Below, one piece after another: positions 24,986 to 43,142 of a stretch of DNA of 64,000 nt. Below the pieces are notes generated by a model. That model was not told where the DNA came from, did no database searches, and saw only the letters and a program-made list of their open reading frames with translations. The translations under genes were made by a program, and so were the position numbers. The stretch comes from Cupriavidus malaysiensis (lineage in GTDB: Bacteria > Pseudomonadota > Gammaproteobacteria > Burkholderiales > Burkholderiaceae): NCBI RefSeq assembly GCF_001854325.1, contig NZ_CP017755.1:2852001-2916000 (forward strand), written 5' to 3'. Numbering within the stretch: the first letter of the stretch is position 1; each line of letters begins with the position of its first letter.

Positions 24986-26488
24986 TCACTCTTCCTGGAA
25001 CGCTTCCTCGCGCTTGGCCTTGATCGAGGGCAGCGCCACCACGGCAACCAGCGCGGCCGCGGCGATCAGCAGGCCGAGCGACAGCGGGCGGGTGACGAAC
25101 ACGCTGAACTCGCCGCGCGACAGCAGCAGGGAACGGCGGAAGTTCTCTTCCATCATCGGCCCCAGCACGAAGCCCAGCAGCAGCGGTGCCGGCTCGCACT
25201 TCAGCTTCAGGAACAGGTAGCCGATCACGCCGAAGCCAGCCGCCATGAAGACGTCGAAGGTCTGGTTGTTGACCGAATACACGCCGATGCCGCAGAACAC
25301 CAGGATGGCGGGGTAGAGGAAGCGGTACGGCACGGTCAGCAGCTTCACCCAGACGCCGATCATCGGCAGGTTCAGGATGATCAGCATCAGGTTGCCGATC
25401 CACATCGAGGCGATCAGGCCCCAGAACAGCGCGGGGTTGCTGGTCATCACCTGCGGGCCCGGCTGGATGTTGTGGATGGTCATCGCGCCCACCATCAGCG
25501 CCATCACCGCGTTGGGCGGGATGCCCAGCGTCAGCAGCGGGATGAAGGAGGTCTGTGCCGCGGCGTTGTTGGCCGATTCCGGACCTGCCACGCCTTCGAT
25601 CGCGCCCTTGCCGAATTCGTGCGCGTACTTGGAGGTCTTCTTCTCCAGCGAGTACGCCGCGAACGAGGCCAGTGCCGCGCCGCCGCCCGGCAGGATGCCC
25701 AGCGCCGAACCCAGGAAGGTGCCGCGCAGCACCGCCGGGATCATGCGGCGGAAGTCTTCCTTGGTCGGCCACAGGTTGGTCACGTGGTCGGTGAAGGTCT
25801 CGCGGGCTTCCTTCTGCTCCAGGTTCGCGATGATTTCCGCGAAGCCGAACATACCCATGGCCAGCGCGACGAAGTCGATACCGTCGGTCAGTTCGGGGAT
25901 GTCGAAGGAGAAGCGCGCGGCGCCCGAGTTCACGTCGGTACCGATCAGGCCCAGCAGCAGGCCCAGCACGATCATCGCCACCGCCTTCGGCAGCGAGCCC
26001 GAGGCCAGCACCACGGCACCGATCAGGCCCAGCACCATCAGCGAGAAGTACTCGGCGGGACCGAACTTGAAAGCCAGTTCCGACAGCGGCGTGGCGAAGG
26101 CGGCCAGGATCAGCGTGGCCACGCAGCCGGCGAAGAACGAGCCCAGGCCGGCGGTGGCCAGCGCCACCCCGGCGCGGCCGCGCCGTGCCATCTGGTAGCC
26201 GTCGATGGTGGTCACCACCGAGGACGATTCACCGGGCAGGTTGACCAGGATGGCGGTGGTCGAGCCGCCGTACTGGGCACCGTAGTAGATGCCGGCCAAC
26301 ATGATCAGCGCGGCCACCGGCGGCAGCGTGTAGGTCACCGGCAGCAGCATGGCGATGGTGGCCAGCGGCCCCAGGCCCGGCAGCACGCCGATCAGGGTGC
26401 CCAGCACGCAGCCCAGGAAGGCATAGGCCAGGTTCTGCAGCGACAATGCCGTGGAGAAGCCCAGGGCAAGGTGTTCGAACAATTCCAT
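24986..26488 (-). CDS. tctA: TctA-family large permease of a tripartite tricarboxylate transporter
   Basis: A 500-residue inner-membrane protein with about 12 TM segments and the DUF112/TctA signatures: LPGLGPLATIAMLLP near residue 40, GIYYGAQYGGSTTAILVNLPGE around 75-95, ATAGLGSFFAGC, GIEGVAGPESANNAAA, and LLLGFVLGPMMEENFRRSL near the end. It takes a carboxylate delivered by a periplasmic Bug/TctC receptor. It lies 12 bp downstream of tctB and ends before a strong terminator. No receptor gene sits in this operon; the two Bug genes at 2.3 and 29.8 kb are candidates, as are receptors elsewhere. Confidence 0.93.
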   Translation of the reverse strand: MELFEHLALGFSTALSLQNLAYAFLGCVLGTLIGVLPGLGPLATIAMLLPVTYTLPPVAALIMLAGIYYGAQYGGSTTAILVNLPGESSSVVTTIDGYQMARRGRAGVALATAGLGSFFAGCVATLILAAFATPLSELAFKFGPAEYFSLMVLGLIGAVVLASGSLPKAVAMIVLGLLLGLIGTDVNSGAARFSFDIPELTDGIDFVALAMGMFGFAEIIANLEQKEARETFTDHVTNLWPTKEDFRRMIPAVLRGTFLGSALGILPGGGAALASFAAYSLEKKTSKYAHEFGKGAIEGVAGPESANNAAAQTSFIPLLTLGIPPNAVMALMVGAMTIHNIQPGPQVMTSNPALFWGLIASMWIGNLMLIILNLPMIGVWVKLLTVPYRFLYPAILVFCGIGVYSVNNQTFDVFMAAGFGVIGYLFLKLKCEPAPLLLGFVLGPMMEENFRRSLLLSRGEFSVFVTRPLSLGLLIAAAALVAVVALPSIKAKREEAFQEE

Positions 26489-26500
26489 GGGACCGACTCC

Positions 26501-26962
26501 TTAACCGGTGATGAAGGCAGGCCACACCGGCATCTGCAGATTGATGCCGTACACGAAGGCGCCGAGGCTGATCAGCACCAGCACCACGCCATTGAGGAGC
26601 GCGCCCTTCCAGCTGAATTCATGGCTGGCCATCGACGACACCAGCACCAGCACGAACACCGACAGCACCATGCCGAGCGGCTTGAGCAGCAGGCCGAACA
26701 GCACCACCGAACCCAGGATCCACAGCAGGGTCTTCAGGTCCCAGCGCGCCAGGTGGTCTTGCTCGCCCTTGCTCGACAGCGAGCCGATCAGGACCAGCGC
26801 GCCCAGCAGGGCGAGCACCAGCCCGAGCAGGAATGGAAAGTAACCGGGTCCCATCTTCGCCGCCGTTCCCATGGAATAGCCGCGTGCGACCCAGGAAAAG
26901 CTCAAACCGACCAGAATGAACATCAGGCCGGAGGCAAAGTCCTTTTGGCTGCGTATGCGCAA
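26501..26962 (-). CDS. tctB: TctB-family small permease subunit
   Basis: A 153-residue membrane protein with four TM segments of the TctB family (DFASGLMFILVGLSFSWVARGYSMGTAAKMGPGYFP at the start). The best start is TTG 26962, which has GAGGAGAATCGT upstream; the longer frame to 27004 has no ribosome site. Cotranscribed with tctA. Confidence 0.88.
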   Translation of the reverse strand: MRIRSQKDFASGLMFILVGLSFSWVARGYSMGTAAKMGPGYFPFLLGLVLALLGALVLIGSLSSKGEQDHLARWDLKTLLWILGSVVLFGLLLKPLGMVLSVFVLVLVSSMASHEFSWKGALLNGVVLVLISLGAFVYGINLQMPVWPAFITG

Positions 26963-29758: not shown

Positions 29759-30721
29759 CTACTCCAGCCGGATATTGCCGGCGCGGATCAACTGCTGGTA
29801 GAAGGCATCGTCCTTGAGCAGTTGCCGGCTGAACTCGGCCGGCCCCTGGAAGGACGGGTACTGGCTGAAACGGATCAGCAGGCCTTTCATGTCGGGCGCG
29901 GACATCACCCGCCCGGCCGCCGCGGCATAGCGCTCGACCGCCGCCTGCGGCGTAGCGCGCGGCGCATAGAGCGCAAACCAGCTCGGCAGCGCCAGGTCGA
30001 GATCCTGTTCATGCAAGGTCGGCACGTCGGGCAGCTCCGGATGCCGCTCGGTGCCGGTCACCGCCAGCGCCTTGAGCCGGCCGGCCTTGATCTGCGGCAG
30101 CGCGACGCTGTCGTAGATCACGTCGATACGCCCCGCCAGCAGATCGTTCATCGCCTCGGCCGAGCCCTTGTAGGGCACATGCAGCATGTTCACGCCGGTC
30201 TTCATGCCGACCACGGCGCCCTGCAGGTGGGTGATGGTGGCCAGGCCGGCGGAGCCGTACGACACCTTGCCCTCGTGCGCCTTGGCGTAGGCGATGAACT
30301 CGCGCATGTCCTTGGCGGGCAGGTCGCGCCGCGCCGTGACGATGCCGATCGAAGACGACAGCTTGGCCACCGGCACGAAATCCTTCAGCGGGTCGTAGGG
30401 AACGGCGCGCAGGTGAGGCGTGATCACGTGCACGGCGGTAGGCGCCAGCAGCAAGGTACTGCCGTCCGGCGGCGCGTTGGCCACCGACTGCGCGCCGATG
30501 GTGCCGCCCGCGCCGACCTTGTTCTCCACCACGAAGGGCGTGCCCAGCTCGCGGTTCATGCGTTCGGCAAACAGCCGTGCCAGCGTATCGGCATTGCCAC
30601 CGGCGGGGTAAGGGACCACCAGCCGCACCGGCCCCTTGTAGTCGGCCAGCGCGGCCGGTGCCGCCGCACAGCCCGCCATCAGCGCCAGGCCGGCGGCCAG
30701 CGCCCTGAAGGTTCGCGTCAT
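29759..30721 (-). CDS. Bug/TctC-family extracytoplasmic solute receptor
   Basis: A 320-residue periplasmic receptor. The signal peptide ends around ...CAAAPAALA (about residue 26), followed by KGPVRLVVPYPAGGNADTLARL, ENKVGAGGTIGAQSVA, MLHVPYKGSAEAMNDLLAGRIDV and GRLKALAVTG, all Bug hallmarks. The ribosome site is CAGGAGACC. It is the last gene of the minus-strand CoA operon beginning at 36449, so its ligand is probably the acid catabolised by that operon. Permease partner not adjacent; TctAB at 25-27 kb is the nearest. Confidence 0.92.
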   Translation of the reverse strand: MTRTFRALAAGLALMAGCAAAPAALADYKGPVRLVVPYPAGGNADTLARLFAERMNRELGTPFVVENKVGAGGTIGAQSVANAPPDGSTLLLAPTAVHVITPHLRAVPYDPLKDFVPVAKLSSSIGIVTARRDLPAKDMREFIAYAKAHEGKVSYGSAGLATITHLQGAVVGMKTGVNMLHVPYKGSAEAMNDLLAGRIDVIYDSVALPQIKAGRLKALAVTGTERHPELPDVPTLHEQDLDLALPSWFALYAPRATPQAAVERYAAAAGRVMSAPDMKGLLIRFSQYPSFQGPAEFSRQLLKDDAFYQQLIRAGNIRLE

Positions 30722-30803
30722 GTTCCCGGTCTCCTGCGCGCGGCGCCGGCCGGCATGCGCCGGGCCCCGCCGCCGTTGTCATCCGCCCCTGCGCCGCCGG
30801 CGC

Positions 30804-31541
30804 TCAGCGCCCCTGGTACTGCGCGCTGCGCTTCTCGCGGAAGGCGCGCATGCCTTCCTGCGTATCCTCGCTCTCGCGCACCACGGACAGCTCGCGCACG
30901 GCATCCGCCATCAGCTCGGAAGGGCCCTTCGGCATCACCGTCTGCGCGACGAAGCGCTTGAGCGTGGCCAGCACCAGCGGTGCCGAGCGCGACAGCTCGT
31001 CGGCCATCTTCAGCGCGGCTTCCACCTGGCCGCCGACCGGCACGATGTCATTGACCAGGCCCACCTCGCGCGCGCGCTGCGCATCCACGGTGCGCCCGAG
31101 CAGCATCAGCTCCATGGCGACCTTGTGCGGCACCCGTGCCGCCAGTCCCGCGATCATGCCGCCGGTGAAACCGAGGCGCGCCTCCGGGTAGGAAAAACGC
31201 GTGTTGTCCGCAGCCACCGCCAGGTCGCACATCATGTGGAGCACCAGCGCCCCGCCCACCACCCAGCCTGCGGTGGCGGCAATGATGGGCTTGTCGGTGA
31301 CGAAGCCCGAGCCCGGGATGCAGCGCCACAGTTCCGGCAGGTTGCCGACATCGGCGCCGGCCGAGAAGGCCTCGTTGCCGGCGCCGGTGATGACCGCCAC
31401 GCGCTGCGCGGACGCGTGGAACTCGCGGAAGCCCTGCTGCAGCAGCTCGGCCGTCTCCTTGCAGATGACGTTGCGCTTCTCGGGGCGGTTCAGGGTGAAC
31501 AGCGTGACCTTGCCATGCTGTTCAATGGTGACGACGCTCAT
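30804..31541 (-). CDS. Crotonase (enoyl-CoA hydratase/isomerase) family protein
   Basis: A 245-residue crotonase fold: VTLFTLNRPEKRNVI, FSAGADVGNL (oxyanion/CoA loop), IIAATAGWVVGGALVLHMMCDLAVAADNTRFSYPEARLGFTGGM. Of the two catalytic glutamates of true hydratases, the one in the PEARLG segment is present, but the position equal to rat E144 is Val (GGALVLHMMCD). One-Glu crotonases are often isomerases or other CoA enzymes, so plain hydratase activity is doubtful. ATG 31541 has AAGGAGACAAAG upstream. It sits between the acyl-CoA synthetase and the Bug receptor genes in the operon. Confidence 0.88.
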   Translation of the reverse strand: MSVVTIEQHGKVTLFTLNRPEKRNVICKETAELLQQGFREFHASAQRVAVITGAGNEAFSAGADVGNLPELWRCIPGSGFVTDKPIIAATAGWVVGGALVLHMMCDLAVAADNTRFSYPEARLGFTGGMIAGLAARVPHKVAMELMLLGRTVDAQRAREVGLVNDIVPVGGQVEAALKMADELSRSAPLVLATLKRFVAQTVMPKGPSELMADAVRELSVVRESEDTQEGMRAFREKRSAQYQGR

Positions 31542-31619
31542 GCTCTTTGTCTCCTTGTCCGATGTTGTCCTTGCCGGCAAGCTTCCGGCAGCCTCGCGGC
31601 GACCCGCTGCCGCGCGCGG

Positions 31620-33731
31620 CTAGCCGATGCGCGCGCGCGCATCCACCGCCACGCAACCCGCGCCAGCGGCGCGCACCTTGAGCGGATTGACTTCGATCTC
31701 GAAGTCGCGCTCGCGCAGGGCATGCGCCAGCCAGCCCATGCGGACGATGACGGCGGCCAGCGCCTCCACATCCAGCGCCGGCCGTCCGCGCCACCCCTGC
31801 AGCAGCGGCGCCACCCGCAAGCGCGCCAGCGCCGCCAGCGCGCTCTCGCGTGACAGCGGTGCCGGCAGCACGACGATGTCCCGCAGCAGCTCGACCAGGA
31901 TGCCGCCGCTGCCGAGCACCACCTGCGCGCCGAACTGCGCGTCGCGGCGCGCGCCGACCAGCAGTTCCAGCTCCCCCTCTTCCTGCGCCTGCAAGGAGAA
32001 GCCGGTGATGGAAGCCTGCGGCGCCAGCGCAGCGATGCGCTCGCGCATGGCCTGCAGCCCGGCGCGCAGCGCCTGCGCATCGGCCACCCCCAGCAGCACG
32101 CCGCCCACCTCCGACTTGTGCACGATCTCGGGCGACACCACCTTGACCACCAGTGGAAAGCCGATGGCCGCACTGCCGGCCACGGCGGCCTCGGCGTCGG
32201 CGAACACCTGGCCACGGTTGACCGGGATGCCGGCACTGCGCAGCAGCGCCTTGGCCGCGGCCTCGTCGAGGGTGCCAGCCAGGCCGGCCGGCAGGACCAT
32301 GTCCACGCCCGGCTGCGCCACCGATTCCGGCCGCCAGGCGGACCAGCGGCACCAGGCCGCGAGCGCCTCCACTGCCTCGCCGAGGCTGTTGGTAAAGGGC
32401 ACGCCCGCCTCCAGCAGCCGGGCGCGTGCCGCAGCGGCGGCCTTGCCCGGCTGCATCACGAACAGCATCGGCTTGCCGCTGGCCGCGCCACCCTGTGCCA
32501 GCCGGGCGGTGGCATCGGCCAGCGCGGGCGCGGTGGTCATCACGAACAGGCCGAGGTCCGCCTGGGCATCATCCAGCGCGAGGGCCGCCGTGCGCTCGCC
32601 GACCTCGGCGGCGTCCGCGCCGTCCTCATGGCGGCGCCCGCCGAGGTCGATCGGATTGCCTGCCTGGCCTTCGGAATACAGCGCCGCCAGCGCTTGCTGC
32701 GTGGCCTGCCCGAAGCGCGCCAGCGGAATGCCGGCTTCGGACAGGCGGTCCGCGCTGAGCGCGCCGCCACCGCCCGAGGTGGTGACGATGACGGCGCGCT
32801 CGACCTGCCGCGCCGGGTAGCGCGCCATGGCGGCCGCCAGCACCAGCATGGCGGCAGGGTCGTCCATCAGCACCACGTTCTCGCGCCGGCAGACGGCCTC
32901 CAGGCTGGCATGGTCGCCCGCCAGGCTGGCCGTGTGCGAGAAGGCCGCACGGCTGCCGTCGGCGGTCTTGCCGGCCTTCACCGCCAGCCAGGGCTTGCCG
33001 GCGGCGCGGGCGCGCCGCGCCAGCTCGATGAAGCGCGCGGGCGACTTGATCCCTTCGATGTAGGTGCAGATCACCCGCGTGCGTGGGTCGGCGATCAGGA
33101 ACTCGACGAAATCGCACAGTTCCAGGTCGGCCTGGTTGCCCACCGAGACACAGTGCGTGAAGCCGATGCCGATGTCGTAGGCGCGATCGAACAGCGTGGC
33201 CATCAGCGCGCCGCTCTGGCTGACGAAGCCGATCGGACTCTCGATCAGGGTGTCGACCTCGAGCGCCGGCGACGAGCACAGCACCAACCGGTTGGCCGGA
33301 CTGATCACGCCCAGGCAGTTCGGCCCGATCAGGCGCATGCCGCGCGCGTTGGCGATCTGCACGATCTCCCGTTCGAGCGCCGCGCCTGCGGCGCCCGCGT
33401 CCGAGAACTTCGAGGTGATGATGATGCCGGCCCGCGCGCCGCGTGCGGCACAGGCCGCCACCTGTTCCTTCACCTTGGGCTGCGGCACCGCCATGATCAC
33501 CATGTCTGGCGCCTCGGGCAACGCGTCGATGCTCGGAAACGTCTTCAGCCCGAAGAGCGTCTCGCGCACCGGGTTGATCGGGTAGACGGTGCCGCCGTAT
33601 TGGTGCTTGAGCAACATGCGGAACAGCCGTCCGCCGAACTTGCCCTGATCTTCCGATGCCCCGATCACCGCCACCGAGCGCGGGGAGAGCAAGGCCGCGA
33701 GATTGTCGGCCGAGGTCTTTGCTGGGTCCAT
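31620..33731 (-). CDS. Acyl-CoA synthetase, NDP(ADP)-forming family
   Basis: 703 residues with three modules: a CoA-binding Rossmann domain (LLSPRSVAVIGASEDQGKFGG), a succinyl-CoA-ligase-like flavodoxin domain (GFVSQSGALMATLFDRAYD; the phospho-His loop in FSHTASLAGD) and a C-terminal ATP-grasp domain (AGIPVNRGQVFADAEAA; PLVVKVVSPEIVHKSEVGGV). It makes an acyl-CoA from a free acid, ATP and CoA with ADP and Pi, or runs in reverse. No GNAT domain is fused. ATG 33731 has a modest ribosome site; upstream in-frame codons belong to the crotonase shadow. In context it could activate, or release, the pathway acid; the CoA transferase is the alternative activator. Confidence 0.9.
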   Translation of the reverse strand: MDPAKTSADNLAALLSPRSVAVIGASEDQGKFGGRLFRMLLKHQYGGTVYPINPVRETLFGLKTFPSIDALPEAPDMVIMAVPQPKVKEQVAACAARGARAGIIITSKFSDAGAAGAALEREIVQIANARGMRLIGPNCLGVISPANRLVLCSSPALEVDTLIESPIGFVSQSGALMATLFDRAYDIGIGFTHCVSVGNQADLELCDFVEFLIADPRTRVICTYIEGIKSPARFIELARRARAAGKPWLAVKAGKTADGSRAAFSHTASLAGDHASLEAVCRRENVVLMDDPAAMLVLAAAMARYPARQVERAVIVTTSGGGGALSADRLSEAGIPLARFGQATQQALAALYSEGQAGNPIDLGGRRHEDGADAAEVGERTAALALDDAQADLGLFVMTTAPALADATARLAQGGAASGKPMLFVMQPGKAAAAARARLLEAGVPFTNSLGEAVEALAAWCRWSAWRPESVAQPGVDMVLPAGLAGTLDEAAAKALLRSAGIPVNRGQVFADAEAAVAGSAAIGFPLVVKVVSPEIVHKSEVGGVLLGVADAQALRAGLQAMRERIAALAPQASITGFSLQAQEEGELELLVGARRDAQFGAQVVLGSGGILVELLRDIVVLPAPLSRESALAALARLRVAPLLQGWRGRPALDVEALAAVIVRMGWLAHALRERDFEIEVNPLKVRAAGAGCVAVDARARIG

Positions 33732-33850
33732 GCTTTGTCTCCGTCTTGTCGTTCTTCTGGCGCGGGCCGGATCGGCGTCCGGCTTCCGCTGCACTGCATG
33801 CCCGGCGTGCCCGCACGGCGCGCTCAAGCGGGGCGCTTCAGCGGGGCACC

Positions 33851-34618
33851 TCAGCGGCGCGTGGCCGCCCGGTATGCCGCGATGCGGTCTTTCAGTCCCG
33901 GGCGCGCGGCGGAGCGCACCAGGTCGGCAAGCTGGCCCGCGCGTGCTGCAGCGCCGGCGCTGCCGCCCAGGGCGGCGGCATGGATCGCGGCCTGCGTCGA
34001 TGCCTCCAGGCGGCACGCCTGCTCCAGCAGCGCCGCCAGGCCGGCCGCGCGCGCGTCGGGCACGACCATGGCGTCCACCAGGCCGGCGCGCAGCGCGTCC
34101 TCGCTGCCGATCGCGCCACCGCCGGCGATCCAGCTGCGCGCGCAAGTGGCGCCGACCAGCGCGGCCAGCCGCTCGGTACCCAGCACCAGGCCGAAGCCGG
34201 CGCCGGGAAAGGCGAAGCTGCTGCCCGGCGCGGCCCAGCGCCGCGCGCAGGCGGCGACCAGGTCGGCGCCCGCGCCCATGGCGCGCCCCTGGACCAGCGC
34301 GACGGTGACGAAGGGCGCGGCATGCACGGCCTGCAGCAGCAGTTCGACGCGCACGAAGCGCGCCAGCAGCGAGTCGTCGCTTTCCTGCTCCAGGTCCTCC
34401 AGGTCGAAGCCGGTGCAGAAGTGCTTGCCGGCACCTTCGATGGCCAGCAGGCGCGTGCCGTCCGTGTGGCAGGCCTCGACCGCTGCGGCCAGCGCCGCCA
34501 CCAGCGCCGCGCTGAGCGCATTGCCGCGCGCCGGCCGGTTCAGTGTCAGGTGCGTCAGCGGGCCTTGCCGGGCGATGCGCAGCAAGGGCTCGGCAGCGGA
34601 TGCGGGGGCGTGGTTCAT
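33851..34618 (-). CDS. Divergent crotonase-family protein
   Basis: A 255-residue crotonase-like protein: LTHLTLNRPARGNALSAAL, GKHFCTGFDLEDLEQ, VTVALVQGRAMGAGADLVAACARRWAAPGSSFAFPGAGFGLVLG. At the two catalytic positions it has Asp (GAGADLV) and Gly (FPGAGFG, where PE is usual), so it is unlikely to be a standard enoyl-CoA hydratase. Its ATG overlaps the dioxygenase stop as ATGA, implying coupled translation and a shared pathway. Possible roles are a hydrolase, lyase or desulfinase-like CoA enzyme; the sequence cannot decide. Confidence 0.82.
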   Translation of the reverse strand: MNHAPASAAEPLLRIARQGPLTHLTLNRPARGNALSAALVAALAAAVEACHTDGTRLLAIEGAGKHFCTGFDLEDLEQESDDSLLARFVRVELLLQAVHAAPFVTVALVQGRAMGAGADLVAACARRWAAPGSSFAFPGAGFGLVLGTERLAALVGATCARSWIAGGGAIGSEDALRAGLVDAMVVPDARAAGLAALLEQACRLEASTQAAIHAAALGGSAGAAARAGQLADLVRSAARPGLKDRIAAYRAATRR

Positions 34619-35256
34619 GCGGCGGGGCGCGCCCACAGATTGGGCACCATGGCGTTGGAGTAGCCCGACACGAAGGGCTTGGCCTGCCCGCTCTGCGGGT
34701 CGTAGACGTGGCGGTCGATGCGGCCGATATTGCCGCCGTACAAGTGGATGCTGACCGAGACGCGATCATCGTAGGCATTGCGCACGCGGTGCACGTCGCC
34801 CAGCGTCGGCGATATCGCGGCCACCTCGCCGCGCTCGAGCCTCACCGGCTCGCCGTCCGGCACCATGCGGCCCGCTTCCTGGCGGAAGCGCTGGTCGATC
34901 TCGGCGCCGCGCAGCACGCCGATCAGGCCCCACACGGTGTGGTCGTGCACCGGCGTCTGCTGGCCCGGCCCCCACACGAAGCTGACCAGCGAAAAGCGAT
35001 CGAGCGGATCGCCGTAGAGCAGGTGCTGCTGGTAGTAGAGCGCGTGCGGCCGCGCCAGGCTCTCGGGCAGCCAGTCGTCATGCGACACCAGGTCGCGCAG
35101 CGGCGCGGTGAGCGCGGCCAGCAGCGCGGCCTCATTGCCAGCCGCATTGCCACCCGCATTGCCACCCATCTCGCTGCCGTCGCGCTGCGCGCGTTCCACC
35201 TGCGCGCTGACAGTCGCCACGAAGGCGCGCAAGCGTTCGATCGGATGCTGCATCAT
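34615..35256 (-). CDS. Thiol dioxygenase of the cysteine dioxygenase family, Gln-type (probable 3-mercaptopropionate dioxygenase)
   Basis: A 213-residue cupin that would oxidise a thiol to a sulfinate using Fe(II) and O2. Iron ligands: H104 and H106 (PVHDHTVWG) and H171 (VSIHLYGG). Where cysteine dioxygenase has the carboxylate-binding Arg60 in Y-T-R-N, this protein has Y75-Q76-Q77, and where it has Cys93 of the Cys-Tyr crosslink this one has W-G (G110). Both changes typify bacterial 3-mercaptopropionate dioxygenases. A small NAGGNAAGN insert lies near residue 33. It overlaps the CoA transferase and crotonase genes by ATGA at both ends. A sulfinate product could be passed to the CoA-transferase, as in 3-sulfinopropionate catabolism. 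Confidence 0.85.
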   Translation of the reverse strand: MMQHPIERLRAFVATVSAQVERAQRDGSEMGGNAGGNAAGNEAALLAALTAPLRDLVSHDDWLPESLARPHALYYQQHLLYGDPLDRFSLVSFVWGPGQQTPVHDHTVWGLIGVLRGAEIDQRFRQEAGRMVPDGEPVRLERGEVAAISPTLGDVHRVRNAYDDRVSVSIHLYGGNIGRIDRHVYDPQSGQAKPFVSGYSNAMVPNLWARPAA

Positions 35257-36449
35257 GCCTCTCCCGTGATGTCCTGTTGCGCGCCGTGGCTGCCACCGGC
35301 GTGGCGCGCGCGCACCTCGGCGTTGTGCTCGCCCAGCGCCGGGGGGTCTAGCCGGATCGGCAGGCCCAGGCCGTCGAAGCGCAGCGGCGAGGCGAAGGTG
35401 CGCGTGCGATGCCCGCCCGGCAGCGTCAGCGGCCGCACCCAGTCCATGTGGCCGACCTGCGGATCGTCCAGCGCGGCGGCATAGTCGTTGATGCGGGCAT
35501 GCGGCACGCCGGCAGCGCGGAAGGCGGCGATCCAGTGCTCGACGCCCTGCTCGCCGAAGCGGACCTCCAGCAGGTCCTTGAGCGCCTCCTGGTGCTGCGC
35601 GCGCTCCCGCGTGCTGGCGAAGCGCGGGTCGGCGGCCAGCTCCGGCAGGCCGACCACGCGCACCACTTCCAGCCACAGCTTCTGGTTGCCGGCGGCGATG
35701 GCAAAGTAGCCGTCGGCGGCGCGGAAGGCCTGGTAGGGCGCATTGCGCGGATGCGCGGAACCCAGCTTGACGGGGCTGCGTCCGTTGCCGAAGTACTCGC
35801 TGGTCTGCAGTGCGGCGATGCCCAGCGTGCAGCCGTACATCGGCACGTCGATATGGGCGCCGGCGCCGCCGGCGCGCACGCGCGCCAGCGCGCTGGCGAT
35901 GGCGAAGGCGGCGTACAGGCCCGAGGCGAAGTCCGCCAGCGGCACGCCGCACTTGACCGGCGCGCCGCCGGGCTCGCCGGTCACGCTCATCACGCCGGCA
36001 GCGGCCTGGATGGTGAGATCGAAGCCGCCTTCGCCGGCACGCGGGCCGCTCTGGCCGTAGGCGGACACCGAGCAGTAGACCAGGCCCGGCTTCTCGTCGC
36101 GGAAGGCGGCGTAGCCCAGCCCCAGGCGGTCCATCACACCCGGCCGGTTGTTCTCCACCACCACGTCCGCGTCGAGGACCAGGCGGCGCGCCAGTGCCGC
36201 ATCGGCGGGATCCTTCAGGTTGAGCGCCACCGAGTGCTTGTTGCGGTTGAGCGAGGCGAAGTTCTCGGAGAAACCGGCCGACAGCGGCGGCCACTGGCGC
36301 AGCGTATCGCCCTCCGGCGGCTCCACCTTGATCACCTCGGCACCCATGTCGGCCAGCAGCATGCCGCAGAAGGGACCGGCGGCCACCGTACAGAACTCCA
36401 CCACCTTGACGCCTGCCAGCGGCAGGTCTTGTTCACTGAGATCGGGCAT
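35253..36449 (-). CDS. CaiB/BaiF family (family III) CoA transferase
   Basis: 398 residues. It starts PLAGVKVVEFCTVAAGPFCGMLLADMGAEVIKVEPPEGD, then NRNKHSVALNLKDP, VVVENNRPGVMDRLGLGY and GQSGPRAGEGGFDLTIQAAAG, in which the catalytic Asp of family III transferases is the D of GFDLT. It moves CoA from a donor thioester to a carboxylic acid. It is the first gene of the operon, directly downstream of a good promoter and operator region. Together with the dioxygenase it could activate a sulfinic acid; family III enzymes doing this are known in 3-sulfinopropionate degraders. Confidence 0.92.
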   Translation of the reverse strand: MPDLSEQDLPLAGVKVVEFCTVAAGPFCGMLLADMGAEVIKVEPPEGDTLRQWPPLSAGFSENFASLNRNKHSVALNLKDPADAALARRLVLDADVVVENNRPGVMDRLGLGYAAFRDEKPGLVYCSVSAYGQSGPRAGEGGFDLTIQAAAGVMSVTGEPGGAPVKCGVPLADFASGLYAAFAIASALARVRAGGAGAHIDVPMYGCTLGIAALQTSEYFGNGRSPVKLGSAHPRNAPYQAFRAADGYFAIAAGNQKLWLEVVRVVGLPELAADPRFASTRERAQHQEALKDLLEVRFGEQGVEHWIAAFRAAGVPHARINDYAAALDDPQVGHMDWVRPLTLPGGHRTRTFASPLRFDGLGLPIRLDPPALGEHNAEVRARHAGGSHGAQQDITGEA

Positions 36450-36511: not shown

Positions 36512-36541
36512 ATTATAGGAACGTTCCAGATTCGGCTACAA
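36512..36541 (-). promoter_or_regulatory. Promoter of the CoA-transferase/dioxygenase operon
   Basis: On the minus strand a perfect -10 TATAAT (36517-36512) is preceded by TTGTAG (36541-36536) with an 18-bp spacer. The palindrome GGAACGTTCC fills the spacer next to the -10, so a bound regulator would block polymerase. A rightward -10 (TACAAT, 36537-36542) for the iclR gene overlaps the leftward -35. Confidence 0.65.
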
Positions 36542-36561
36542 TCGTTCCACATTTGAGAACG
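36518..36561. promoter_or_regulatory. Twin palindromes, candidate IclR operators
   Basis: GGAACGTTCC at 36518-36527 is a perfect 10-bp palindrome. CGTTC-N9-GAACG at 36543-36561 is a second one with the same half-sites, two helical turns away. Both lie in the 161-bp divergent region between the CoA-transferase and IclR genes. The shared GTTCC/GGAAC element recurs at 37461-37481. Confidence 0.6.
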
Positions 36562-36610: not shown

Positions 36611-37408
36611 ATGAACAACACCCTGATCAAGGGCCTGGGCGTGATCGAGCTGCTGGCGCACAGCGAACGCCCGCTGGGCCTGAGCGAGATCGCCGCCGAG
36701 CTCGGCCTGGCCAAGAGCAATGTGCACCGCCTGCTGCAGGCGCTGACGGAGCTGCGCTACGTCATCCGCGCCGGCGACGGCAGCGGCTACAGCGCCTCGA
36801 TCAAGCTGTGGGAGCTGGGCTCGGCCGTGCTGTCCCGGCTCGACCTGCGCCGCCACGCCGAGATCTGGATGGACCAGCTGATGCACGCCAGCGGCGAGAG
36901 CGTGCACCTGTCGGTGCTGGACCGCGGCGAGGTGGTCTACGTGCACAAGATCGACAGCCCCAACCCGGTGCGCGCCTACACGCAGATCGGCGGACGCGCG
37001 CTGGCGCACTGCGTGGCGACCGGCAAGGCCATGCTCGCCTTCCTGCCCGAAGCCACGCTGCAGCGCATGGCGGCAGCGCTGGTACCCTCCACGCCCCACA
37101 GCATCGTCGAGCCCGCGCGCTTCCTGCGCGAGATGGAGAAGATCCGCAAGCAGGGCTACGCCGTCAATCGCGGCGAATGGCGCGAGACCGTGTCCGGCAT
37201 CGCCGCGCCGATCACCGACTGCCACGGCCATGTGATCGCCGCGGTCGGGCTGTCGGGTCCGGCCGAGCGCTTCCGTCCCGGCCGTCTCAAGCCCTTTGCC
37301 GACATGGTGCAGGAGGCGGCCGCCGAGATCACCGCCAGCCTCGGCGGCGGCAGCCACGACGCGCTTGCCCTGGCTACCCGCAGCATGGCGGACCTGCGGC
37401 GGCGCTGA
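36611..37408 (+). CDS. IclR-family transcriptional regulator
   Basis: A 265-residue IclR protein: winged helix MNNTLIKGLGVIELLAHSERPLGLSEIAAELGLAKSNVHRLLQALTELRYV, then effector domain with VHLSVLDRGEVVYVHKID, GGRALAHCVATGKAMLAFLP and TVSGIAAPITDCHGHVIAAVGLSGPAERF. It is divergent from the CoA-transferase/dioxygenase operon and followed on its own strand by an aldehyde dehydrogenase gene. Similar palindromes at both promoters make it the likely common regulator. The effector is presumably the pathway acid or its CoA ester. Confidence 0.93.
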   Translation: MNNTLIKGLGVIELLAHSERPLGLSEIAAELGLAKSNVHRLLQALTELRYVIRAGDGSGYSASIKLWELGSAVLSRLDLRRHAEIWMDQLMHASGESVHLSVLDRGEVVYVHKIDSPNPVRAYTQIGGRALAHCVATGKAMLAFLPEATLQRMAAALVPSTPHSIVEPARFLREMEKIRKQGYAVNRGEWRETVSGIAAPITDCHGHVIAAVGLSGPAERFRPGRLKPFADMVQEAAAEITASLGGGSHDALALATRSMADLRRR

Positions 37409-37588: not shown

Positions 37589-39016
37589 ATGTATCAGGAT
37601 CTCGCTCTCTACATCGATGGGGAATTCGTCAAGGGAGGAGGCCGGCACGAGCAGGACGTGATCAATCCCGCGACGCAGGAAGTGCTGGGCAAGCTGCCCC
37701 ACGCCAGCAAGGCCGACCTGGACCGCGCGCTTGCCGCCGCGCAGCGCGCCTTCGAAAGCTGGAAGAAGACCTCGCCGCTGGAGCGCTCCAAGATCCTGCG
37801 CCGCGTCGGCGAGCTGGCGCGCGAGCGTGCCAAGGACATCGGCCGCAACATCACCATGGACCAGGGCAAGCCGCTGGCCGAGGCGGTGGGCGAGGTGCTG
37901 GTGTGCGCCGAGCATGCCGACTGGCATGCCGAGGAATGCCGCCGCATCTACGGCCGCGTGATCCCGCCGCGCCAGCCCAATGTGCGCCAGATCGTGGTGC
38001 GCGAGCCGATCGGCGTCTGCGCCGCCTTCACGCCGTGGAACTTCCCCTTCAACCAGGCCATCCGCAAGATCGTCGCCGCCGTCGGCGCCGGCTGCACGCT
38101 GATCCTGAAGGGGCCGGAAGACTCGCCCAGCGCGGTGGTGGCGCTGGCCCGGCTGTTCCATGACGCCGGCCTGCCGGCGGGCGTGCTGAACATCGTCTGG
38201 GGCGTTCCCAGCGAAGTCTCGACCTACCTGATCGAGTCGCCGATCGTGCGCAAGATCTCCTTCACCGGCTCGGTGCCGGTCGGCAAGCAGCTGGCCGCGC
38301 TGGCCGGCGCGCACATGAAGCGCGTCACCATGGAGCTGGGCGGCCATTCGCCGGTGCTGGTGTTCGACGATGCGGACGTCGAACCGGCCGCCGAGATGCT
38401 GGCCCGCTTCAAGCTGCGCAACGCCGGCCAGGTGTGCGTGTCGCCGACGCGCTTCTACGTCCAGGAGAAGGCCTACGACAAGTTCCTGGCGCGCTTCACC
38501 GAGGTGATCGGCTCGATCAAGGTCGGCAACGGCCTGGAGACCGGCACCGAGATGGGCCCGCTGGCACACGAACGCCGCGTGCTGTCGATGCAGCAGTTCC
38601 TCGACGACGCCAGCCACCGCGGCGGCAAGATCGTCGCCGGCGGCTCGCGCATCGGCGACAAGGGCTTCTTCTTCGCCCCCACCGTGGTGACCGACCTGCC
38701 CGACGACGCCAAGCTGATGGTCGACGAGCCCTTCGGCCCGGTCGCGCCGGTGACCCGCTTCAAGGACACCGAGGAAGTCCTGCGCCGCGCCAACAGCCTG
38801 CCCTACGGCCTGGCCTCCTACGTCTTCACCAATTCGCTGAAGACGGCCACGCAGGTCTCGAACGGCCTCGAGGCCGGCATGGTCAACATCAACCACTTCG
38901 GCATGGCGCTGGCCGAGACGCCCTTCGGCGGCATCAAGGACTCCGGCATCGGCAGCGAAGGCGGCCAGGAGACCTTCGATGGCTACCTGGTGACCAAGTT
39001 CATCACCCAGGTCTGA
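37589..39016 (+). CDS. NAD(P)-dependent aldehyde dehydrogenase (succinate-semialdehyde dehydrogenase-like)
   Basis: A 475-residue [40 protein letters not shown] (cofactor site), [13 protein letters not shown] (Rossmann GxxxxG), the general base Glu in TMELGGHSP, the catalytic Cys in [11 protein letters not shown], and PFGPVAPV and [15 protein letters not shown] at the C-terminus. It is closest in pattern to succinate-semialdehyde and alpha-ketoglutarate-semialdehyde dehydrogenases. ATG 37589 has ACCAGGAGAATGGC upstream. The substrate is probably a carboxylated aldehyde. It is probably controlled by the IclR protein encoded just upstream. Confidence 0.92.
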
Positions 39017-39112: not shown

Positions 39113-40675
39113 TCAGCGCGCCGGCGCCCGGCCGCCATAGGCGAACACCGCGTCATCGAGATCGATGGCGGGAAACTCGTCCTTCTCCCCCCAGTAGTCC
39201 TGCGTGTGCTGCCATTCGCGCTTGCTGCCGCGCTTGGGCAGCAGGTGCATGCCGCGCATCAGGTAGCCCGGATTGAAGTTCTCCGGGTCCACCCAGCTGC
39301 CGAGCGCCATCTCGCGGTCCTCGGGCCGCAGCACCGGCACCACGCTGCCGACACCCTTGTCGCGCATATGGCACAGCAGCCGGCAGACGAAATCGCCGAT
39401 CAGGTCCGCGCGCAGCGTCCAGCTGGCGCGGAAGTAGCCGAATACCCAGACCAGGTTGGGCACGCCGGTGAACATCATGCCGCGGTAGGTCACGCTGTCG
39501 GAGAACACCAGCGGCTTGCCGTCGATGGTGAAGGCGATATCGCCGAGCACGCTGAGGTCGAAGCCGGTCGCGGTGACGATGACGTCGGCCTCCAGCGTGC
39601 GGCCCGACTTGAGCTGGACACCCCCTTCGACGAAGCGCTCGATCTCGTCGGTGACCACCGAGGCCTTGCCTTCGCGCACGCTCTGGAACAGGTCGGCGTC
39701 CGGAATGTAGGCGATGCGCTGCCGCCAGGGCCGGTAGCGCGGCGTGAAATGGGTGTCGACGTCGAAGTCGGGCCCGAGGCTGGCGCGCACCCCCGCCAGC
39801 AGCTCGGCCTTGACCGTTTCCGGTTCCTGCTGCGCGCGCTGCGTGAACACCGCCTGGTCGTGCAGGATCTTGCGCCGCACGATCTCGTGGATCCAGCTCT
39901 CGTCGATCTTCAGCTGGCGCAGTTCGTCGGCCAGCACGTTGGCATTGCGTCCGGTGATGAAGTAGGTAGGCGAGCGCTGCAGCATGGTCACGTGCGCGCA
40001 GCGTCCGGCCAGCGCCGGCACCAGCGTGGCCGCGGTCGCGCCGGAGCCGATCACGAGCACGCGCTGGTCCGTGCAGTCCAGGTCCTCGGGCCAGTCCTGC
40101 GGATGGACGATGCGGCCGCGGAAATCGGCCATGGCCGGCCATTCCGGCGTATAGCCCTGGGCGTGCCGGTAGTAGCCCTGGCACATCCACAGGAAGTTCG
40201 CCGTGAAGCGGACCGTCGCGCCGGTATCACTGCGGCTGGCTTCGATGGTCCACAGGCTCTGCTCGCTCGACCATGAGGCCGAACGGATCGCGTGGCGGTA
40301 ACGGATATGGCGCGCCAGCCCGTTCTCGGCGATGACTTCGCCCATGTAGGCGAGGATCTCCGCCGCGGTGGCGATCGGGGTGCCGGTCCAGGGCTTGAAG
40401 CGGTAGCCGAAGGTGTAGAGGTCGCTGTCGGAGCGCACGCCCGGATAGCGATGCGTCAGCCAGGTGCCGCCATAGCCCGCCTGCGACTCCAGCACTACGA
40501 AGCGCATTTCCGGACACTGGTCGTTCAGGTGGTAGGCAGAGGCGATGCCGGAGATGCCGGCGCCGACGATCAGCACGTCGAAGTGTTCGGCCGCGCCGAC
40601 GGCCTCCGGCACTGGCGCCGCGTTGGTGGCGTTGGTGGCGTTGGTGGCGTTGGCAGTGAATGCAGCTTCAGTCAT
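39113..40675 (-). CDS. Flavin-containing Baeyer-Villiger-type monooxygenase
   Basis: 520 residues. FAD motif GAGISG at 38-43, GG-TW at 69-72, BVMO fingerprint F185-x-G187-xxx-H191-xxx-W195-P196, and NADPH motif GSGATA at 210-215, followed by ATGFDLSVLG. It would convert a ketone to an ester or lactone with O2 and NADPH. An N-terminal tail holds four NAT/NAA triplets coded by a 9-bp tandem repeat. Its ATG overlaps the alpha/beta-hydrolase stop by 8 bp, and an SDR follows in the same transcript: the usual dehydrogenase, monooxygenase, ester-hydrolase team. Substrate (cyclic, aliphatic or terpenoid ketone) not predictable. Confidence 0.9.
   Translation of the reverse strand: MTEAAFTANATNATNATNAAPVPEAVGAAEHFDVLIVGAGISGIASAYHLNDQCPEMRFVVLESQAGYGGTWLTHRYPGVRSDSDLYTFGYRFKPWTGTPIATAAEILAYMGEVIAENGLARHIRYRHAIRSASWSSEQSLWTIEASRSDTGATVRFTANFLWMCQGYYRHAQGYTPEWPAMADFRGRIVHPQDWPEDLDCTDQRVLVIGSGATAATLVPALAGRCAHVTMLQRSPTYFITGRNANVLADELRQLKIDESWIHEIVRRKILHDQAVFTQRAQQEPETVKAELLAGVRASLGPDFDVDTHFTPRYRPWRQRIAYIPDADLFQSVREGKASVVTDEIERFVEGGVQLKSGRTLEADVIVTATGFDLSVLGDIAFTIDGKPLVFSDSVTYRGMMFTGVPNLVWVFGYFRASWTLRADLIGDFVCRLLCHMRDKGVGSVVPVLRPEDREMALGSWVDPENFNPGYLMRGMHLLPKRGSKREWQHTQDYWGEKDEFPAIDLDDAVFAYGGRAPAR
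40622..40648 (-). repeat. 9-bp tandem repeat in the monooxygenase gene
   Basis: GTTGGTGGC is repeated three times in the 5' end of the monooxygenase gene and encodes alternating Asn-Ala-Thr. Slippage would add or remove triplets without frameshift. Confidence 0.7.
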
Positions 40676-41465
40676 GACGCTCCTCCAGATGGCGTTCGAT
40701 GCGTTCCAGCAGGCGCTCGGGCTGTTCCAGCATCACCAGGTGCCCGCAATCGATCTCTTCGTAGCGCGCGCCGGGCACGGCCTGTGCCAACGCGCGGCAA
40801 TGCGCCGCCGGCACCAGGCGGTCCTGGGCCAGCCCGATCACCAGCGTGGCGGCGCGGACCGCCGGCAGGCAGGCACGGATATCGACGATGGCGTCGAGCG
40901 CCGCCTGCCGGTCGCTGCCCGGCGCCAGTCCGGTGGCAAAGCGCGCCAGCACGGTCTCGACCAGCGACGGGTCGCTGGCGGCGAAGAAGCGCTCGGAGAC
41001 ACCGTTGAGCAACAGCAGGCGGGCAAGCTGCGTGTGGTCGGTGCGGGCCAGTGCCTGCCACAGGTCGAACTGCACGCGCATGCGCAGGTCGGTCGCGGCC
41101 CAGCCGCCCAGCACCACCAGCCGGCGCACCTGTCCCGCCAGCCTGGCCGCGGCCGCCGCCGCCACCACGCCGCCCAGCGAGTAGCCGACCAGGTCCAGCG
41201 CTTCGCCCTCGGCCAGGGCGGCGACGGCCTCCACCTGCCCGACCAGCCGTTCCAGGGTCAGCGCCGAGCCGTCGTCCACGCTCAGGCCCGAGCCGGCCAG
41301 GTCGGGCACCAGGCAGCGCCGCCGTTCGGCGAGGCGCGCCAGGATGGGCGCCCAGCCCGTCTCCGCGCTGGACGATGTGCCATGCACGAGGATGGTGGGC
41401 CGGCCGCGGCCGGTGTCGATCAGGCTGGTACGGACGCCTGCCGCGTCCACGGTCAGTCTTTGCAT
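40668..41465 (-). CDS. Alpha/beta-hydrolase (esterase/lactonase-type)
   Basis: A 265-residue hydrolase: oxyanion motif LVHGTSSS, lid-side DLAGSGLSVDDG, nucleophile elbow GYSLGG (Ser), acid VIGLAQDRLVP (Asp) and a catalytic His in EIDCGHLVMLEQPERL. ATG 41465 has CAGGAGACATGGCGCA upstream. It overlaps the monooxygenase gene and probably opens the ester or lactone made by that enzyme. Confidence 0.9.
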   Translation of the reverse strand: MQRLTVDAAGVRTSLIDTGRGRPTILVHGTSSSAETGWAPILARLAERRRCLVPDLAGSGLSVDDGSALTLERLVGQVEAVAALAEGEALDLVGYSLGGVVAAAAAARLAGQVRRLVVLGGWAATDLRMRVQFDLWQALARTDHTQLARLLLLNGVSERFFAASDPSLVETVLARFATGLAPGSDRQAALDAIVDIRACLPAVRAATLVIGLAQDRLVPAAHCRALAQAVPGARYEEIDCGHLVMLEQPERLLERIERHLEERHD

Positions 41466-41604
41466 TGCGCCATGTCTCCTGTCTGTTTTCCTGCTTCTGG
41501 TGGTGCCGCCAGCAACGTGATGGCGGCGGCGCGGCCGGGACGGCGCTGTCCGCGGCGGGACGGGCACCGCGACGTGCGCCCTGCCGTCCGCCCTGCCGCC
41601 CGCC

Positions 41605-42378
41605 CTATTGCGCGGTCAGCCCGCCGTCGACGGTGAACTGCGCGCCGGTGATGTAGCGCGCCTCGTCGGAGGCGAGCAGCAGGAAGGCGCCGACGATGTC
41701 GTCCGGCGTGGCGAGGCGGCCGAGCGGCGTGATGCCCTCGATGCGCGCCCGCGCGGCCGCCGCCGCGCCGGCGTCGAGCGCACCGATCGAGCGCAGTACC
41801 ATCGGTGTCTCGACGAAGCCGGGATGGATGGAGTTGACGCGGACCGGCGGCGAGCACTTGGCGCCGTGCAGGGCCGCCGAGCGCGTCAGCAAGGTCACGC
41901 CGCCCTTGGCGGCGCAATAGGCCGCCACCTGGTCGCCGCCCACCAGCCCGTAGATCGACGACACGTTGATGATCGAGCCGCCTCCCTCGCGCATCAGCGG
42001 CAGGGCCGCGCGACAGCCGAGAAAAACCCCGGTCAGGTTGACATCCAGGGTGCGCTGCCAGTCGGCCAGCGAGCAATCGGCAATGGAGCCGCGCAGGGCG
42101 ATGCCGGCGTTGTTCACCAGCACATCGAGCCGGCCGTGGCGGCGCTCGACCTCCGCCATGGCTTCCTGCCAGGCCGTTTCGCGCGCCACGTCCAGGTGCA
42201 GGAACAGGGTGTCGGCACCCGCTGCGGCCAGCGCCTCGCACAGCGCCTGCCCGGCATGCGCGTCGATGTCGGCCAGCACCACCGCGGCCCCCGCCTCGGC
42301 GGCCGCGCGGCTGAAGGCAGCGCCGAGCCCGGAGGCCGCGCCGGTGACCATCACGATCTTGTCTTGCAGGCGTGGCAT
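41605..42378 (-). CDS. SDR-family alcohol dehydrogenase
   Basis: A 257-residue classical SDR: TGAASGLG at 12-19, Asp after the second strand (LADIDAH) favouring NAD, LVNNAGIALRG, catalytic Ser in NVSSIYG and YCAAKGG, and the C-terminal ITGAQFTVDGGLTAQ. It probably oxidises the alcohol that feeds the monooxygenase. Its start overlaps the tetR stop by one base (TGATG). A 139-bp gap separates it from the hydrolase gene. Confidence 0.9.
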   Translation of the reverse strand: MPRLQDKIVMVTGAASGLGAAFSRAAAEAGAAVVLADIDAHAGQALCEALAAAGADTLFLHLDVARETAWQEAMAEVERRHGRLDVLVNNAGIALRGSIADCSLADWQRTLDVNLTGVFLGCRAALPLMREGGGSIINVSSIYGLVGGDQVAAYCAAKGGVTLLTRSAALHGAKCSPPVRVNSIHPGFVETPMVLRSIGALDAGAAAAARARIEGITPLGRLATPDDIVGAFLLLASDEARYITGAQFTVDGGLTAQ

Positions 42379-43142
42379 CAGGCCCTCCCTTGTCGGTGAC
42401 CGCGCTGCGCGGCGGTCGGTGCTTGCTCCTGGGTCCGCGCCTTGTCCTGCGCCTTGTCCTGCGCCGGTTCGGCGCCGGCATCCGGTGGCAGGCCGAGATG
42501 ACCCCGCACGAGATCGCTGAGCGCGGCGACCATGCGCTCAGGGTCCGACGGCAACGGCGATTGCGGGTTGTAGAGGCTGTTGAAATGCATCGCACGCGCG
42601 GCATGCATGGCCAGCATGATGCGGTCGCGCCAGCCGGGGATCGCGGTCACCTCGGGATAGCGCGCCAGCGTATCGACCAGGCGCCCGCTGACTTCGTTGC
42701 CGAGGCGGCCGACCGGCTCCCAGGCGGCCGGATCGTCGAGCGCGCGCTTGAGCACCGCGCGCAGCACGCCCTGGCTGCGGCTCTGGATCTTCACCGCCAG
42801 GTCCACGCAGGCGACGATCACCGCCGCGGGCGGCTTGTCCTGCATGACCGCGTAGGCCAGCAGCGCATCCGTCTCGGCGCGGATGCGATCGAAGGCGCGC
42901 GCGAGCGCGGCCTGGACGAAGCGCTCCTTGTCGCCGAAGCGGAAGTAAAGCGCGCCGATCGAAGCACCCGCGCGCTCGGCCACCAGCGCCATCGAGGTGG
43001 CCTCGATGCCGACCGCCTCGATGCAGGCCAGCCCTGCATCGAGCAAGGCGTCTTCGGTGGCCTGGCTGCGCGCCTGCTTCGGCCGGCGGCGTTCGCCCGC
43101 TCCGCCCTCCTGGGACGGCACCCGCTCCACGCTTGCCTTCAT
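42378..43142 (-). CDS. TetR-family transcriptional regulator
   Basis: A 254-residue repressor: HTH at about 22-68 (RSQATEDALLDAGLACIEAVGIEATSMALVAERAGASIGALYFRFGDKERF), a ligand domain, and a low-complexity tail (AQDKAQDKARTQEQ). It is the first gene of the SDR-hydrolase-monooxygenase transcript, so it would regulate itself and the three enzymes. The effector is presumably the substrate or its ketone. Confidence 0.9.
   Translation of the reverse strand: MKASVERVPSQEGGAGERRRPKQARSQATEDALLDAGLACIEAVGIEATSMALVAERAGASIGALYFRFGDKERFVQAALARAFDRIRAETDALLAYAVMQDKPPAAVIVACVDLAVKIQSRSQGVLRAVLKRALDDPAAWEPVGRLGNEVSGRLVDTLARYPEVTAIPGWRDRIMLAMHAARAMHFNSLYNPQSPLPSDPERMVAALSDLVRGHLGLPPDAGAEPAQDKAQDKARTQEQAPTAAQRGHRQGRA

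Follow-up and report, generated by a model that had tools for sequence, protein, structure and literature searches.

Among described systems, the Mdo-Act-AcdA pathway of Advenella mimigardefordensis DPN7 and Variovorax paradoxus TBEA6 degrades 3-mercaptopropionate and 3-sulfinopropionate, the acyl-CoA-dehydrogenase-like enzyme AcdA acting as the desulfinase, and the published A. mimigardefordensis cluster, within the extract of that source used here, has the same gene types as the Act-AcdA-MDO order of four loci in the present comparison (L179-L182; PMC5373536). An operon in a 64,000-nucleotide stretch of Cupriavidus malaysiensis (the window; contig C2 of the three-contig, 7.95 Mb source genome, G000) shares with this pathway a Gln-type thiol dioxygenase of the 3-mercaptopropionate dioxygenase kind (MDO), a family III CoA transferase (CoAT), a TctC receptor and tight clustering, but has a crotonase (Crt1) as its third gene instead of AcdA, together with an ADP-forming acyl-CoA synthetase (ACS) and a second crotonase (Crt2). 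What many Gln-type thiol dioxygenases do in the cell is, to our knowledge, unclear. Judged from its sequence, this gene set probably serves to import a sulfur-containing acid, to oxidise its thiol and, at the level of the coenzyme A ester, to remove the sulfur, an unusual crotonase standing where the known pathway has a different enzyme.

The operon spans positions 36449 to 29759 on the minus strand. Its first gene, CoAT (35253..36449, 398 amino acids (aa)), matched PF02515 at 408 bits with positions 1-366 of the 366-position model covered, a full-length family III CoA transferase match; its best NCBIfam model, succinate-glutarate CoA-transferase, scored 293.6 bits, under that model's cut-off of 750. 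The genes for MDO (34615..35256, 213 aa; PF05995, 30 bits, gathering score 23) and Crt1 (33851..34618, 255 aa; PF00378, 91 bits) follow, with ATGA overlaps at both CoAT/MDO and MDO/Crt1. Gaps of about 120, 80 and 80 bases then part Crt1 from ACS (31620..33731, 703 aa; CoA_binding_2, Succ_CoA_lig and ATP-grasp_5 domains), ACS from Crt2 (30804..31541, 245 aa; PF00378, 154 bits) and Crt2 from a Bug/TctC periplasmic solute-binding receptor (29759..30721; PF03401, 215 bits). The best PDB matches of ACS were a 4-hydroxybutyrate CoA ligase (293 bits) and a 3-hydroxypropionate CoA ligase (290 bits), with the dimethylsulfoniopropionate (DMSP) lyase 7cm9 ranking fourth at 226 bits. An earlier note on this DNA had claimed this six-gene order, ATGA joins included, and all six genes were found at the coordinates first assigned, with their domains and both overlaps confirmed.

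The closest PDB entries to MDO (4qma, 3uss/4tlf, 6xb9 and 4wvz, at 197-223 bits) are 3-mercaptopropionate dioxygenases or their homologues, while similarity ruled out assignment as a cysteine dioxygenase (CDO; mammalian-type entries at about 24-31 bits) or as a mercaptosuccinate dioxygenase (8vni, 34 bits). In the 213-aa numbering the motif YYQQH begins at position 74 and HDHTVWG at position 104, which places Q77 and G110 where the earlier note had put them. Q77 (Gln in place of CDO Arg60), the three His ligands H104, H106 and H156, the Ser-His-Tyr residues S169, H171 and Y173, and R182 are invariant in 27/27 MDOs of the CoAT-MDO-Crt1 cassette and in 5/5 AcdA-linked MDOs, and the catalytic and carboxylate-binding residues are identical across the cassette, AcdA-linked and rhodanese-linked groups. 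R182 aligned with Arg168 of the Azotobacter vinelandii MDO, and in that enzyme the residue holds a substrate analogue by its carboxylate (PMC8050391). The same note's description, in which a dioxygenase of the 3-mercaptopropionate type is coupled to CoAT, is supported at the sequence level. This is the only strong Gln-type MDO in G000, the four further matches being weak (E 1e-7 or worse). These four distant CDO-like matches (L156, 9671-10258, and L157; 27-32% identity to MDO, with E 0.45 for the last) lie mostly within one 20-kb stretch together with amino-acid-type transporter genes.

A quick tree of 115 MDOs and three structures, drawn from an uneven and largely similarity-chosen sample, in which stars mark 34 of 115 inner branches and the FastTree draft defines the sides, largely separated CoA-linked MDOs (those with a gene beside CoAT, Crt1 or AcdA) from rhodanese-linked MDOs. 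The two-state split of 46 CoA-linked and 51 rhodanese-linked rows needs three changes, and the full set of context labels needs 21 against a shuffled mean of 60.1. The AcdA-linked MDOs, whose context is the one published for Mdo, sit with the cassette MDOs on the CoA-linked side, away from most rhodanese-linked MDOs; two rhodanese-linked rows (L068 and L096) also fall on that side, and the three solved MDO enzymes cluster with the rhodanese-linked rows (49-row set, support 99). In the rhodanese-linked context, 54 of 119 labelled MDOs (L049-L062 and others) lie directly upstream of a gene for a rhodanese-domain protein of ~535 aa, with four rhodanese stretches in the one member tested; genes for luciferase-like monooxygenases and ABC transporters are often near, giving a second, assimilatory-looking context.

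The recurrence of the arrangement was assessed by a Crt1-led scan of 399 genomes from a family other than that of the source, the only scan unbiased for MDO linkage, the other MDO loci having been selected by similarity to the window MDO. A purpose-made GC-frame script called the genes in these relatives; at least one MDO (L236) escaped it and was recovered by translated search. Crt1 was present in 31/399 genomes at E <= 1e-35 (33 at E <= 1e-25), and since MDO occurred in 24 of those 31 genomes against 55 of the 368 without Crt1 (Fisher p = 5e-13), the MDO-Crt1 arrangement is not a product of chance. MDO lay directly upstream of Crt1 on the same strand in 13 genomes (including those of L236 and L238, where CoAT is not directly upstream), within 10 kb in 6 and elsewhere in 5. 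The scan gave 36 matches, and 32 regions were examined after leaving out L178, which was already in the set, and three weak matches. CoAT was the next gene upstream of Crt1, or was parted from it by MDO alone, in 29/32 of these loci, which makes CoAT-Crt1 the tightest pair and MDO a frequent partner, standing between the two in 11/32. Among the MDO loci, CoAT-MDO-Crt1 was seen in Cupriavidus, in a strain labelled Pantoea sp. 18069, in Zeimonas and in several metagenome-assembled genomes (MAGs), one of them labelled Lautropia. ACS and Crt2 form an add-on module, as few of the 57 Crt1 loci carry them (10 and 12 loci); at L043, L064 and L065 the three-gene cassette stands without either, as judged at the loci themselves. 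The analysis thus parts the CoA-linked from the rhodanese-linked context of MDO, and ties the former to a recurrent cassette with a crotonase partner.

Three further neighbours were seen at cassette loci. In L104, L121, L122, L125 and L139, CoAT is preceded by a member of a family of 301-364 aa, also found in L106 and L107, and the one tested, in L121, is similar to the D-proline reductase component PrdB (89 bits, cut-off 300). A distant second cupin, 30% identical to MDO, lies at L225 6336-6899 in a cluster with a complete CoAT-MDO-Crt1, in genome G839 and ~20 kb from Act-AcdA. At L240 6545-7753, a cystathionine beta-lyase gene (452 bits, cut-off 366), a possible thiol source, is directly upstream of CoAT-MDO-Crt1.

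The predicted structure of Crt1 has the crotonase fold, which together with its Pfam ECH_1 match places it in the crotonase superfamily. In the hydratase mechanism of this superfamily the alpha proton is taken by E164 as base, while E144 is placed next to the substituent on C3. At these two glutamate positions Crt1 has Asp (D119) and Gly (G139) in 23/23 sequences, with R87 and R150 also in all 23 and R90 in 22; across a wider set of 37, G139, R87 and R150 were kept in 37, D119 in 36 and R90 in 35. Crt2 keeps the E164-equivalent and has Val at the E144-equivalent, and its relatives have Glu at the former in 15/15 and at the latter in 0/15. As the catalytic pair is incomplete in both proteins, neither looks like a hydratase by sequence, and the earlier note was right to call them odd. 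An ordinary enoyl-CoA hydratase of beta-oxidation, as the Pfam family and fold of Crt1 might imply, is very improbable for a protein in which both glutamates are replaced in 23/23 sequences. On mechanistic grounds, Crt2, with an E164-type base and no E144, would suit a beta-elimination in which a thiolate or another good leaving group departs, and Crt1, which lacks an alpha base but has an acidic residue next to C3, would suit protonation of C3 as sulfite leaves.

In L099 a relative of Crt2 (49%) is flanked on one side by an AMP-forming ligase and on the other by a zinc-type reductase, which is directly upstream of MDO, and a reductase is near a Crt2 relative in L154 as well; these reductases are presumably AcuI-like. 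They and the BisC-family reductases of Crt1 loci, described below, fit thioether and acryloyl-CoA chemistry. A divergent family I CoA transferase pair comes after Crt1 in L071, L099, L229, L232, L234 and L239, along with an AMP-forming ligase.

What the sequence itself shows is the gene content, the overlaps, the recurrence, the active-site residues and the absence of the glutamates; all reactions given below, the substrate and what ACS, Crt2 and Crt1 do are inferred. The operon is tentatively taken, at somewhat below even probability, to degrade a 3-mercaptopropionate-type thiol acid via CoA esters with Crt1 in the place of AcdA, its input probably being a thioether or other S-substituted precursor of such an acid. 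The acid would be taken up by the Bug receptor with a TctAB pair; ACS would form the CoA ester of the S-substituted acid, from which Crt2, with only its E164-type base, would eliminate the thiol to leave an acryloyl-type CoA. MDO would oxidise the thiol to a sulfinate (3-sulfinopropionate if the thiol is 3-mercaptopropionate), CoAT would transfer CoA to the sulfinate, and Crt1 would cut the C-S bond of the sulfino-acyl-CoA to give acyl-CoA and sulfite, as AcdA does in the known pathway. This last assignment draws on the Asp at the E144 position, the missing E164 base and the clade-specific conserved arginines, and the order ACS, Crt2, MDO, CoAT, Crt1 is suggested because Crt2 keeps the alpha base and Crt1 has only an acid by C3. 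The scheme is favoured by the parallel between CoAT-MDO-Crt1 and the Act-AcdA-MDO of L179-L182, by the active-site residues kept in cassette and AcdA-linked MDOs alike, by the conserved positions of Crt1 and of the Crt2 relatives, by the loci with three genes only, by the neighbourhood of the Crt2 relative in L099 and by the scarcity of AcdA described next. A broader and more doubtful possibility is that Crt1 founds a family of crotonase-fold acyl-CoA desulfinases, or sulfino-acyl-CoA C-S lyases, that arose independently of AcdA with its acyl-CoA-dehydrogenase fold, CoAT-MDO-Crt1 then constituting a complete route of three genes from thiol acid to acyl-CoA and sulfite.

The earlier note had described the operon as one without an AcdA-like desulfinase and had called for a search of the genome. 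For the operon this stands, no acyl-CoA dehydrogenase domain being present among its six proteins; for the genome it does not, as the search found AcdA on C1, the other large contig (C1:1152069-1153199; NF042439, 656.6 bits against a cut-off of 600), where the gene immediately upstream of it encodes an Act-type family III CoA transferase. The 20 kb examined around this pair held no MDO. The G000 AcdA and Act are 78-80% and 75-77% identical to their counterparts in six loci of other genomes (L177-L182), and G000, with Act-AcdA on C1 and one strong MDO in the window, could assemble the known pathway from these two places; AcdA might then share or take over the step proposed for Crt1. In surveys of 399-genome sets, in which scoring took in the four best candidates of each genome at E <= 1e-120, some genomes were MAGs, and AcdA counted as absent if nothing passed the model cut-off of 600, AcdA exceeded the cut-off in 3/399 genomes of the order (G000 included) and 8/399 of the other family. 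Within a set of 24 genomes AcdA was found in four (G696, G699, G701 and G703), in each of which the locus is disrupted or lacks part of the arrangement, and over the cut-off in 0/13 of those with an intact CoAT-MDO-Crt1. AcdA was likewise found in one of the 13 unbiased-set genomes with MDO directly before Crt1 (G839), and over all genomes with MDO and Crt1 together in 2/27 (G000 and G839). The argument from a missing AcdA therefore fails for G000 but holds for 25/27 of these genomes, which have none over the cut-off, and on that account the note's suggestion of desulfination by a crotonase may be kept, altered, as a tentative proposal that the co-occurrence of AcdA and Crt1 speaks against. 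The gene system itself is sound and recurrent, and the earlier family-level reading of it holds.

Two other candidates for an AcdA-like desulfinase were rejected. In L069, MDO is followed by an acyl-CoA dehydrogenase whose best PDB relatives are ACAD11-type and which the AcdA model scored at 82 bits (cut-off 600); among the acyl-CoA-dehydrogenase-like proteins beside many rhodanese-linked MDOs, the one tested (L053) scored 104 bits.

Several observations weigh against Crt1 as the desulfinase. We know of no crotonase chemistry in which sulfite is lost from the beta carbon, and a second desulfinase would be redundant in G000, given that AcdA and a second CoA transferase are encoded there. Crt1 was found in 7/9 AcdA genomes (8 of these 9 over the cut-off) against 24/390 others (p = 3e-7), a positive association that rejects mutual exclusion and suggests partners or shared ecology rather than plain replacement; between genomes with MDO directly before Crt1 and other Crt1 genomes, AcdA did not differ significantly (1/13 and 6/18, p = 0.19). 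The association also fits the main rival, a rather unlikely order of events in which Crt1 precedes MDO: CoAT would activate a thioether acid such as 3,3'-thiodipropionate, Crt1 would free 3-mercaptopropionate and acryloyl-CoA, MDO would oxidise the former and Act-AcdA encoded elsewhere would desulfinate it, an arrangement for which G000 has both its one strong Gln-type MDO and Act-AcdA. BisC-family S/N-oxide reductases, which would convert a sulfoxide to a thioether, in 9/57 Crt1 loci point the same way (three tested, 914-983 bits, just below the subfamily cut-off of 1017.6). Alpha-proton removal in the crotonase fold uses an E164-type base, however, and it is Crt2 that keeps this base and Crt1 that is without it; in addition, the 25 genomes noted above would have no AcdA over the cut-off for the final step. 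Further points for Crt1 acting before MDO come from V. paradoxus TBEA6, where the crotonase Ech-20 is proposed to act on thiodipropionyl-CoA, and where mutants in ech do not grow on thiodipropionate but do on 3-sulfinopropionate (PMC6370202).

The substrate of the cassette MDOs may also differ from that of the AcdA-linked ones, which again tells against a 3-mercaptopropionate route through Crt1, because position 110, in the region of CDO Cys93 and beside the iron site, is Gly in 27/27 cassette MDOs and Ala in 5/5 AcdA-linked MDOs. This difference slightly raises, at slight cost to the reading with Crt1 in AcdA's place, the improbable alternative of an alpha-mercapto acid such as thioglycolate or thiolactate, in which Crt1 would remove SO2 from an alpha-sulfino-acyl-CoA via a CoA enolate, in the manner of methylmalonyl-CoA decarboxylase. 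For a crotonase fold, which stabilises enolates, no desulfination known to us is easier than that of an alpha-sulfino-acyl-CoA, and the genomes with two MDOs (G721, G850 and G934), one by Act-AcdA and one by CoAT-Crt1, fit two substrates. The catalytic and carboxylate-binding residues shared by all three MDO groups nonetheless fit a beta-thiol carboxylate.

Finally, MDO was not found in 7/31 Crt1 genomes (Crt1 at E <= 1e-35), and in five of the 57 Crt1 loci (L233, L242, L246, L248 and L249) CoAT-Crt1 stands with a Rieske oxygenase and an ABC transporter and with no MDO at the locus, three of the five being in MDO-free genomes. The oxygenase is VanA-type (L233 tested) and the transporter branched-chain-amino-acid-type, and the Crt1 of these loci may serve another substrate class. 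Such loci, the genomes with Crt1 and no MDO, and the placement of Crt1 beside family I CoA transferases would be expected if CoAT-Crt1 handled an unrelated acid and MDO were a passenger or detoxification step, but this is of similarly low probability to the alpha-mercapto alternative, given the excess of MDO in Crt1 genomes and its position between CoAT and Crt1 in 11 of the 32 scan loci.

The genes around the operon add possible regulation, transport and accessory functions. An IclR-family regulator gene (36611..37408, plus strand; PF01614 and PF09339) diverges from the operon, and the family was found in 38/57 Crt1 loci. Upstream of CoAT, a 49-base promoter- or operator-like block (36512..36560, minus strand) has two GGAAC repeats and TATAAT; its conservation across ten aligned CoAT-IclR intergenic regions, good in eight Cupriavidus-type regions and partial in two more distant ones, suggests IclR control of the operon, and a palindrome search of these regions was uninformative. 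Beyond iclR, an aldehyde dehydrogenase of succinate-semialdehyde dehydrogenase type (37589..39016, plus strand; TIGR01780, 486.5 bits, cut-off 646) is probably accessory to the operon, and copies 93-94% identical adjoin the cassette in L043, L064 and L065. About 3 kb beyond the Bug gene, TctB (26501..26923, PF07331, 73 bits) and TctA (24986..26488, PF01970, 545 bits), both on the minus strand, are possible membrane subunits for the operon's receptor. The window also carries, at 39113-43142 and on one strand, genes for an FMO-type monooxygenase, an alpha/beta hydrolase, a short-chain dehydrogenase and a TetR regulator, a set that we take to resemble one for Baeyer-Villiger type degradation of cyclic ketones.

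Among the matches listed from the open-licence PMC literature, as far as the text of these sources was covered, no description of a CoAT-MDO-Crt1 cassette was noticed; PMC6370202 was the only paper found there for desulfinase with crotonase, and likewise for 3-mercaptopropionate dioxygenase with crotonase, and the part used of PMC6572756, on 3-hydroxypropionate in C. necator, had no bearing on the cassette. Relative to the Mdo-Act-AcdA pathway, the window CoAT is 34-38% identical to Act-type proteins (38% to that of G000 itself) and is not an Act orthologue, and the regulator is of the IclR family where DPN7, in the material used, has LysR and XRE regulators. The CaiB-CaiD type of pair, a family III CoA transferase with a crotonase, follows the same two-enzyme logic as CoAT-Crt1, but Crt1 is without both hydratase glutamates. 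The nearest structural counterpart in the comparison, 3isa from Bordetella parapertussis, a structure-only entry for a putative enoyl-CoA hydratase/isomerase, belongs to the same clade (328 bits to the Crt1 family profile) and shares the motifs GAG(A/V)D and PG..FG.VLG, its function being listed as 'putative'. If Crt1 does desulfinate acyl-CoA esters, it would provide a second, unrelated fold for this step and the route would be commoner than the distribution of AcdA suggests.

The thiodipropionate cluster of V. paradoxus TBEA6 (Ech-20, Ech-30, VPARA_05510), as far as the source was covered, has in common with the window an MDO, a CoA transferase, several crotonases and a semialdehyde dehydrogenase, and differs in containing acdA, act and acyl-CoA dehydrogenase genes, the comparison being one of gene types. 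In the same material, beta-elimination from thiodipropionyl-CoA by a crotonase was proposed and the authors could not show the activity (PMC6370202). Should Ech-20 prove to be an orthologue of Crt1, the order with Crt1 before MDO would gain, and a Crt1 acting as a thioether lyase would bear on the missing cleavage step of thiodipropionate degradation, a point that the TBEA6 authors did not settle (PMC6370202).

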